Of a stretch of 34,022 nucleotides of DNA, positions 20,743 to 23,270 are shown piece after piece. The notes under the pieces were generated by a model, which had not been told where the DNA came from, made no database searches, and saw only the letters and a program-made list of their open reading frames with translations. Origin of the DNA: an uncultured delta proteobacterium (lineage in GTDB: Bacteria; Bdellovibrionota_C; UBA2361; OMII01); the NCBI GenBank assembly GCA_903920005.1, contig CAIXKI010000172.1, positions 1 to 34,022 on the forward strand, given 5' to 3'. Position 1 is the first letter of the stretch, and the number at the start of each line of letters is the position of its first letter. Both the position numbers and the translations under genes were made by a program.

Positions 20743-21279
20743 ATGGAGACGATTGTGAGAGAGTTAAAGTTATTTTTTGAAAGTGAAGAATTAGTAGAAG
20801 TTGAAATCTCCAACCAAATGACCGGTGAAGTGCGTCGATCTGTGCGTGGAAAGCAGAGTGGGGCGTACCGAGATGCCGGATCTTTTCAGTGGACCTCGGC
20901 GGTTCGGGGTCTCGCTCTTCTTGTTGTGCGAACGGCGGCTCGCTTCGAGCAGCCAGCGATAGAAGGGGAGGCGAAGTCGCTTACCGCCAGTCTTGATTAC
21001 GCGATATCGAAGCAGCCGCTTTGGCTGACGGAGATGTTCGGCTGTGATCGGATGGGTACATGCCTTGTTCGCAGAATGGTCTTGAGGACTAATCCGGAGA
21101 GGAAGCGCCCGGGGCCAACTGTCCTGGCGATCAATGAGCGGTATATGCCAGTGGAGGCGATATCGATCTTTAACGACGGGGCGCGATGCACGAGGGAGGA
21201 CCTCATTGTTCTTGCCGTAGGGCTTGCGTGCGCATGGTCGTCTAGCGCGACTCGAGCAGAGGCGGCAAAAGCGGCCTAG
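20743..21279 (+). CDS. Hypothetical protein (178 aa)
   Basis: Protein-like ORF preceded by a possible small ORF starting at 20618 (SD agagg) that overlaps its start. Confidence 0.5.
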   Translation: METIVRELKLFFESEELVEVEISNQMTGEVRRSVRGKQSGAYRDAGSFQWTSAVRGLALLVVRTAARFEQPAIEGEAKSLTASLDYAISKQPLWLTEMFGCDRMGTCLVRRMVLRTNPERKRPGPTVLAINERYMPVEAISIFNDGARCTREDLIVLAVGLACAWSSSATRAEAAKAA

Positions 21280-21280
21280 T

Positions 21281-21583
21281 ATCGAACCCGCGACAATCGC
21301 GCCTGGAGGGGCGCCGGCCTCGATGCCCGGGGTCGGCGCCCCGCCGGCTTGCTGCAGCCCTCCACATAGACCGCATCGCAACATTTGTACCTGCGGCCGG
21401 CGAGGCCGCCGGCCCTCCAACGAACCCGCGACATGTGTACCTGGAGGGCCGGCGGCCCCGCCGGCTTGTCGCAACCTGCGACATTAAACGCATGAAACCT
21501 TTATTCCCGTGGGCACCGAGGCCGGTGCCCCTCCAAATCCATTCCATGTTGCATGTGTACCTGCGGCCACCCCGCGCCCCTCC
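21281..21583. repeat. GC-rich palindromic repeat cluster 1
   Basis: GAACCCGCGACA at 21284 and 21422; CAT[TG]TGTACCTG at 21382, 21432 and 21552; 27-mer TGGAGGGCCGGCGGCCCCGCCGGCTTG at 21442-21468, shared with cluster 2. Confidence 0.9.
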
Positions 21584-21793
21584 CCGGGATGCCACAAGGA
21601 ATCGCCGGATTGGCATAATGAAAAGCCTCTAAGGCGACGTTTCGACGCCCTGGCCCCATAACCCCCAAGTGGGCGGCACTCTGCGAAAAGGTAGTGCGAG
21701 TCATCTTCATTCTTTGTGAACCCCCTGGATAGCTTTTGGTATTGAGAGCTGTGCGGGGGGTTCATAGGGAACTTTTTTACAAGGAGGTTGGAG

Positions 21794-22099
21794 ATGATTG
21801 AAGTACGGCAAGGACGCCGGAGTTGCACCCTGGTTTTCGAGCCATCTCGTGTAGATGGCTGGGCGGAGTATTTTGTGGAGGACCTCTGGCTTCCTCTCAA
21901 TATCCCCGTCGAAATTCAGGGGGCAACCTTTGTACCCGTCGACCATGGCCTGCTCATGGAACCTGGAGATCACCTCGTTGTGGTTAAGCCGCATCGAGGT
22001 CTCAAGGTCCCTTGGAACAGGCAGCTCTTATTCCGAAAGGAATCAGGGCGCATCATGGTCGAGTTCCTATGTTCAAAGCACAGCGTTGCTGCTGCGTAG
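21794..22099 (+). CDS. Small hypothetical protein (about 101 aa)
   Basis: AAGGAGG SD at 21781-21787, ATG at 21794; followed by a terminator. Confidence 0.7.
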   Translation: MIEVRQGRRSCTLVFEPSRVDGWAEYFVEDLWLPLNIPVEIQGATFVPVDHGLLMEPGDHLVVVKPHRGLKVPWNRQLLFRKESGRIMVEFLCSKHSVAAA

Positions 22100-22114
22100 G
22101 AGATAGGAATTAAA

Positions 22115-22174
22115 AGGGGGGGCGTCTTTGCATTTTATTATTACGGTTATCTGCAGAGACCGCCCCTCTTTTTT
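22115..22174 (+). terminator. Intrinsic terminator
   Basis: AGGGGGGGCGTCT ... AGAGACCGCCCCTCTTTTTT. Confidence 0.8.
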
Positions 22175-22260
22175 ATTGCGGATCATAGATCCGAATCCTT
22201 TTCCGCGATTACGGCCTAATTATTACTGCAAATGCGCTAGTTTCCCTGCACAATAGAACC

Positions 22261-22725
22261 ATGATCTCATATCGACCCGCAGACAGAGAGAAGGATTTCG
22301 CGTTCGCTCGACAGGTGCATCATCGAGCGTACCGCGACGTTGTCACCAAGCAGTTTGGTACTTGGAATGAGACCATGCAGGACCGGTTCTTCGCCGATGA
22401 ATGGTGGACGTTGCCATTCCAGATAGTTTCGCTTAATGATGCTCCGATAGGAGTCTTGAGTGTGCGCTCGGTAAATGGATACCTCTTTATTCATGAAATA
22501 CAGCTGCTACCTGAGTTTCAAGGACAGGGCATTGGCTCTGAAATATTGCGAGAGCAGATCGCCGAAGCCAAACAGCTCGCCCTGCCTCTAAAGCTCAAAG
22601 TCCTCCGTAAGAATAGGGCGCAGGAGTTATATAAGCGGATGGGCTTCGTCCCCTATAAAGAGACTGATATTGATATCTTTATGAAGTTCGAAGCGGGTTT
22701 CTCATCTGGCGGCGACACTCGATAA
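22261..22725 (+). CDS. GNAT family N-acetyltransferase
   Basis: LFIHEIQLLPEFQGQGIGSEILREQIAEAKQ...KVLRKNRAQELYKRMGF. Confidence 0.92.
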   Translation: MISYRPADREKDFAFARQVHHRAYRDVVTKQFGTWNETMQDRFFADEWWTLPFQIVSLNDAPIGVLSVRSVNGYLFIHEIQLLPEFQGQGIGSEILREQIAEAKQLALPLKLKVLRKNRAQELYKRMGFVPYKETDIDIFMKFEAGFSSGGDTR

Positions 22726-22727
22726 TT

Positions 22728-22915
22728 ATGGAGGGACACCGGCCCGTCCCGCCGGAGGCGAGGGGGACCCCGCCGGCCCTCCAATGTTCCCTTGATAATT
22801 ATGCGATTCGCCCGAACCAACGACGATCGTCCGTGGAGGGCCGGCGGCCCCGCCGGCTTGCTGCGGCCCTCAACGATCATGGAGGAGCGCAGGTCGCGCC
22901 GCCGCGCCCGCCGTA
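22728..22915. repeat. GC-rich palindromic repeat cluster 2
   Basis: 27-mer identical to cluster 1 at 22834-22860; CCGCCGGCTTGCTGCGGCCCTC at 22850-22871 matches 21341-21362 with one mismatch; TAATTATG direct repeats. Confidence 0.9.
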
Positions 22916-22925
22916 AAAGTCTTCA

Positions 22926-22988
22926 TCTAGTGTTGACTAGAGGGGCCATTTGCTTTAATTCCGATTAAAGCAAACAAGTTTTGTTTGC
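22926..22988. promoter_or_regulatory. Three consecutive inverted repeats, two mutually exclusive
   Basis: TCTAGT-gttg-ACTAGA; TTTGCTTTAAT-tccg-ATTAAAGCAAA; GCAAACAA-gtt-TTGTTTGC. The last two share GCAAA at 22970-22974. Confidence 0.8.
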
Positions 22989-23270
22989 GCGATTGATGAG
23001 TTGTTCAAAGTCAGTCGAGGTCAGTTGCCTCTTCAATCTCCAGTCCCGGCTAAAAGCAGGGATGATTTGAGGACACGCTCGCGCTTAAAAGAGCTACAGT
23101 GAGGGCCATTCGGGTTCTCGCCGAGGGCCGTGTAAACTGGTGAGGTGGTTGAGTCGAGAGAGTGCTCTTGCGACTCGCGCCTTATTCGTTGGAAGTTGCC
23201 TGAACGTTTGCTGGATGCCCCATGGCATGAGTAGGCTGAATGTCAGCTTCCCTTTGGGAGAAAAGAGGAA

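Follow-up and report, generated by a model that had tools for sequence, protein, structure and literature searches.

What are the GC-rich palindromic repeats that form two clusters around a two-gene segment in an uncultured delta proteobacterium (Bdellovibrionota_C), and how did they come to be there? The window, by which we mean the whole stretch of 34,022 nucleotides that was analyzed, had been read from its letters alone in an initial annotation, which offered REP- or MITE-like non-autonomous elements or mRNA-stabilizing hairpins as possible readings. We followed the repeats through the window, their own genome (G000) and related genomes, and conclude that the clusters are very probably REP elements arranged in REPIN/BIME mosaics and spread by a RAYT, with the gcvPB site of this genome now RAYT-less.

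Results

Anatomy of the two clusters

Cluster 1 extends from about 21304 to 21584, starting 24 nt 3′ of a stop codon, and cluster 2 from 22729 to about 22876, starting 3 nt 3′ of another. The repeats that had drawn attention to the locus, namely a 27-mer with identical copies at 21442–21468 and 22834–22860, a 22-mer at 21341 and 22850, and in cluster 1 the spacers GAACCCGCGACA (21284 and 21422) and CAT[TG]TGTACCTG (21382, 21432, and 21552), were all confirmed. The "variable cores" described between them turned out to be REP subtypes, with GGCCGGCG and GGGCACCG stems in the window, together with decayed copies.

Cluster 1 opens with REP 1 (21305–21328, + strand; GGAG-GGGCGCCG-GCCT-CGATGCCC), a decayed copy 25 nt past the stop of the gene at 20743–21279, followed by a decayed or chimeric REP on the − strand (21329–21363; foot CCCTCCA at 21358). 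REP 2 (21395–21418, − strand; GGAG-GGCCGGCG-GCCT-CGCCGGCC) has a perfect 8-bp stem with a folding energy of −12.5 kcal/mol as single-stranded DNA, and REP 3 (21443–21466, + strand; GGAG-GGCCGGCG-GCCC-CGCCGGCT) lies within the 27-mer. Between these two is the spacer ACGAACCCGCGACATGTGTACC (21420–21441, + strand), toward which the feet face inward on both sides and whose type recurs elsewhere in the genome. A 44-nt REPIN spacer with outward-facing feet (21467–21510, + strand) leads to REP 4 (21511–21534, − strand; GGAG-GGGCACCG-GCCT-CGGTGCCC), which is of the second subtype, and the cluster ends in a spacer containing CATGTGTACCTG followed by a decayed REP remnant (21536–21584, + strand). Cluster 2 holds a decayed REP pair with its feet outside (22729–22783), 3 nt past the stop codon of a GNAT gene, and REP 5 (22835–22858, + strand), a 24-mer identical to REP 3. 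Predicted hairpin folds were obtained for the intact copies in the window, and REP 2 and REP 3 together could form one long hairpin (−34.6 kcal/mol, z −6.65). Over the window, Rfam gave no curated match, and a relaxed threshold gave chance matches only.

The genes between the clusters lie outside the element. The GNAT acetyltransferase gene (22261–22725, + strand) was borne out by Pfam (PF00583, 4.2e-12). The small gene at 21794–22099 (+ strand) has a Shine-Dalgarno sequence (AAGGAGG), and no family match was found for it. A terminator-like hairpin (GGGGGGGCGTCTTT...AGAGACCGCCCCTCTTTTTT) at 22103–22175, 3′ of this small ORF, suggests that the ORF may be expressed. That the clusters bracket the two genes looks incidental, since there are 42 clusters in the 327 kb of sequence analyzed, or about one per 8 kb. 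We saw no sign that the segment moved together with the clusters, and its DNA had no match in 11 genus-mates among the matches listed; with nothing in its favor, a composite-transposon reading of the segment was rejected. Directly after cluster 2 lies a stretch of 214 bp without a predicted gene (22923–23135), which is 85.5% identical to a sequence in the genus-mate G005 (L122 7090–7303), where adjoining genes are about 67% identical, and parts of which also match G011 and G006. It is a candidate regulatory region or small RNA, and an Rfam search of it gave no match.

A hairpin with a GGAG foot

The constant unit is T-GGAG followed by an 8-bp GC stem, a 3–4-nt loop and the second arm. Three subtypes occur in the own genome, with arms GGCCGGCG, GGGCACCG, and GGTCGGCG and the loop GCCY, the GGTCGGCG subtype being present beyond the two stems seen in the window. 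When we counted perfect 8-bp stems with loops of 3–5 nt behind eleven tetranucleotides in 327 kb of the own genome, GGAG stood at the foot of 61 hairpins, vs 0–3 for each of the ten others, including GTAG (1) and GTGG (0). The conserved, unpaired tetranucleotide at the hairpin foot by which REPs are recognized is therefore GGAG here, and it was the foot in every REP set observed within the genus. In 27 of 56 copies the foot was immediately preceded by CCT, which by analogy is only suggestive as a hint of a cleavage site.

Across nine REP types from four species, stem covariation was 0.80, compared with 0.22 after shuffling, and both-sided changes were found in six of the eight pairs. Pairing was 100%, a percentage that is partly by construction, as the types were picked as perfect hairpins; that selection does not account for the way compensatory changes are spread over the species.

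Copy number in the genome and its relatives

In the own genome (3.33 Mb), the TGGAGGGCCGGCGG core was found 160 times as an exact match and its reversed control not once, which establishes a genome-wide family; with units of 24 nt, these are 20–40-nt, high-copy, extragenic palindromes, as REPs are. Among 57 other genomes searched, G005 held 79 copies and G001 held 2, and none were found in the remaining genus-mates or in any more distant genome. The repeats are thus neither confined to the window nor constant in copy number. We rejected the two G001 copies as evidence from a third species, since their contig (C74, L127) is about 97.5% identical to contig C31 of the own genome (L053), whereas another G001 gene is only about 73% identical to that genome, so the contig is probably misbinned. 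A scan of GTDB r220 gave a single match (L043), at which the element lies 3′ of what looks like prmC.

Other members of the genus carry REP cores of their own. Those of G004, G006, and G009 differ from TGGAGGGCCGGCGG: GGAGGGCCCGTNTCCYNACGGGCC has 7 copies in G006 and 31 in G004, GGAGGGCGCGCRTTCCTG has 16 in G004, and TGGAGGGCGSCCGG has 121 in G009. The core in G001 is GGAGGGTCGGCGTCCCCGCCGACC, and six of the ten genus-mates other than G005 had none of the cores searched for. G010, which has no intact core, holds a decayed copy of the mosaic element (L102 1485–1578) behind the orthologue of the gene that adjoins a cluster in the own genome (L054 1018–1253), which suggests that the family may be older than the split between the two species.

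Around the clusters we obtained no site that was cleanly empty, with the element precisely missing. In G001 and G008, the orthologue of the gene at 20743 lacks a trailing repeat but has different neighbors; in G009 the orthologue is followed by that species' own REP, and in G005 the downstream block is present with other neighbors. Many G000 contigs (for example C14, C70, C107, C118, C125, and C153) begin or finish at REP arrays or inside them; the repeat thus probably breaks the assembly, which would make the copy number a lower bound.

Pairs, mosaics, and placement

REPs often occur in inverted pairs with reusable spacers, with preferred spacings of 44 nt (own genome) and 54 nt (G005) for outward feet and about 53 nt for inward feet. 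Units and spacers combine into a mosaic with a period of about 199 bp, sometimes reduced to tandem arrays of about 55 bp, as at the start of contig C14. The inverted pairs, regular spacing and conserved spacers that mark REPINs and BIMEs are therefore all present. Core identity was 0.94 within the own genome and 0.95 within G005, with a consensus common to both, whereas the 20-nt flanks were only 35–60% identical and the spacer sets of the two species mostly differed.

A cluster lay no more than 30 nt from 20 of the 37 gene 3′ ends that faced one, compared with 2 of 26 facing 5′ ends, in 327 kb of stretches that were selected mostly for holding repeats and whose gene ends, called with a simple hexamer gene finder, are approximate. 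Genes border 21 clusters on either side, and of these gaps 13 are tandem, 7 convergent, and 1 divergent. Placement behind genes agrees with what has been published for REPs (PMC3733652).

RAYT genes in the genus and the gcvPB site

That no RAYT is visible is true of the window. Y1 transposase genes occur in 12 of 12 genomes of the genus, and the majority are long genes without flanking REPs. Short RAYTs in G006, G004, and G001 adjoin GGAG hairpins of the same design, with cores other than TGGAGGGCCGGCGG. The G006 gene has REP pairs on both flanks, and the G004 gene lies between a remnant and four REP pairs in tandem, so a RAYT flanked by its cognate REP, the arrangement termed a REPtron, is seen in both; in G001 a perfect REP adjoins the gene on the one side seen. 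At the 36 other Y1 loci there were merely two weak GGAG hairpins. The three short RAYTs form a clade of their own (support 100/99, with a warning of long branches from the tree tool), and their scores against NF047646 (REP-associated tyrosine transposase) were 82.6 bits in G001, 77.2 in G006, and 69.4 in G004, the latter two being under the cut-off of 80. The sole solved relative found for the G006 protein was E. coli TnpA-REP (PDB 4er8).

In the own genome (91% complete) and in G005 (70% complete) no short RAYT was found, nor was a RAYT with a cognate REP found in the own genome, whose Y1 genes were rejected as REP-flanked RAYTs as none is flanked. One long Y1 type (L035 on G000 contig C3; L074 on G005 contig C28) is exclusive to the two species that share TGGAGGGCCGGCGG and has no REP flanks. 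A RAYT-like gene of G039, from the same class but more distantly related, is surrounded by GTGG hairpins.

G006 and G004 each have the RAYT with its REPs bounded by gcvPB and a downstream gene, which is the same one in both species. In the own genome, gcvPB and that downstream gene enclose the window's repeat on one contig, without a RAYT, and these shared neighbors place the repeat in the position that RAYT and REPs occupy in the sister species. In G009, gcvPB runs into that species' REP array, which reaches the contig end. A RAYT gene thus probably stood ancestrally between gcvPB and its conserved neighbor. The enzyme seems to be gone from this old site in the own genome, through loss rather than relocation as we infer, and the RAYT missing from the genome as a whole may have been lost or may lie within the unassembled 9%.

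Discussion

Of the readings proposed at the outset, that of REP-like non-autonomous elements gains support from the genome-wide, lineage-specific copy number, from the REPIN/BIME layout and from the RAYTs flanked with sister repeats in genus-mates. Studied TnpA-REP enzymes recognize foot and hairpin in single-stranded DNA and cut at a nearby CT or CA (PMC8266576). By analogy, a RAYT/TnpA-REP of the HUH type would most likely recognize the GGAG foot and hairpin in single-stranded DNA, and most likely cut nearby and copy REP pairs into new sites. We infer the cognate enzyme from the sister species, since neither the own genome nor G005 has a short RAYT. Local duplication could then produce the mosaics and tandem arrays, copies would be retained chiefly at positions immediately 3′ of stop codons, as the places of least harm, and once transcribed they would be expected to form stable RNA hairpins. 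The enzyme would be an ancestral RAYT at the gcvPB site, kept in two genus-mates and gone from that site in the own genome.

An unlikely alternative mobilizer is a long Y1 protein (315–350 aa), for instance of the L035/L074 type, in which the gene of the own genome and that of G005 pair with each other exclusively among the Y1 genes recovered, or the protein on contig C240, which scores above the cut-off of the REP-transposase model (81.5 vs 80). Yet GGAG hairpins flank no long Y1 gene of the own genome, the C240 gene being truncated by the contig end with one flank outside the assembly; such genes occur in all genus-mates whatever their repeats, and the REP-flanked transposase genes of the genus are of the short type. 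We find it quite improbable that the hairpins were instead kept for a role in RNA, as 3′ mRNA stabilizers or terminators, and spread by recombination without a transposase. Compensatory stem changes, stable folds, placement just behind stop codons and the rarity of clusters in divergent gaps (1 of 21) would all fit that role, and mRNA-stabilizing hairpins are compatible with placement at 3′ ends. However, the GGAG foot is kept across species even though it is not part of the stem, other genus-mates lack the copies or carry replacements, a RAYT is flanked by sister repeats, and the hairpins in the window are not followed by a T-run. Spread by a RAYT and a role in RNA that came later would be compatible.

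The MITE-like reading, by which the long CCCTCCA...TGGAGGG arms would be terminal inverted repeats of elements moved by a DDE transposon, found no support and is extremely unlikely. Inverted arms do recur around spacers, but their orientation and spacing vary, with single units, inward pairs and outward pairs all occurring. The constant unit is the hairpin with its foot, and neither a parent transposon nor a target duplication was seen, there being no clean empty site at which to see the latter.

RAYTs have been described as domesticated transposases that occur in single copy and pass down vertically (PMC8049555), co-evolving with their REPs (PMC2817692). The genus studied here offers a shared RAYT site, REPs at that site that differ between species, a changed foot, and one REP-bearing species without the enzyme there, and such a series is natural material on how foot recognition changes and for how long REPs survive their enzyme. 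The arrays would also explain why the metagenome-assembled genome is broken at repeats.

Compared with known systems, the repeats come closest to the RAYT-associated GTAG REPs, with which they share the plan of a foot tetranucleotide and a short-loop hairpin, the stem there being of 6–9 bp (Nunvar 2010, PMC2817692; Di Nocera 2013, PMC3733652). High copy number, dimers and clusters, species-specific families, location behind genes and, here in genus-mates, a RAYT gene flanked by REPs are likewise common to both. They differ in that no cognate RAYT was found in the own assembly and in the foot, which is GGAG instead of GTAG or GTGG and lies outside the GTAG superfamily, whose reported degeneracy covers GYAG, GYRG, GTRG, and GTMG (PMC2817692, PMC3733652). 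In the REP/RAYT literature that we searched, the feet described are GTAG, GTGG, degenerate forms of these, or CGTC, and no word starting with GGAG was found, a search that GGAG within longer words or in figures would escape. Given the GTGG hairpins at G039, the foot may have changed within the class. E. coli TnpA-REP and the G006 RAYT have the HUH motif and the WQ..FW[ED] region in common, whereas at the positions of the foot-contact residues E100 and H101 of TnpA-REP (PMC6006769) the RAYTs of the genus have D and S/R/T. These residues would fit a changed specificity and are no proof of it, since D also occurs there in other RAYT subclasses. It is possible, if somewhat doubtful, that GGAG REPs and short RAYTs make up a separate tag superfamily, in which guide specificity switched from GTRG to GGAG within the class and more than 160 intact-core REPs have outlasted the RAYT at its ancestral site.

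Inverted pairs, reusable spacers, alternating orientations and tandem arrays are shared with the BIMEs of E. coli and the REPINs of Pseudomonas (PMC6006769, PMC3116915). Unlike these, the repeats described here combine two or three REP subtypes in each mosaic of about 199 bp, and their spacer sets mostly differ between two species with a shared core. This kind of REP is already well known, and the novelty is modest: a GGAG foot, cores that change species by species, and a relic RAYT site.
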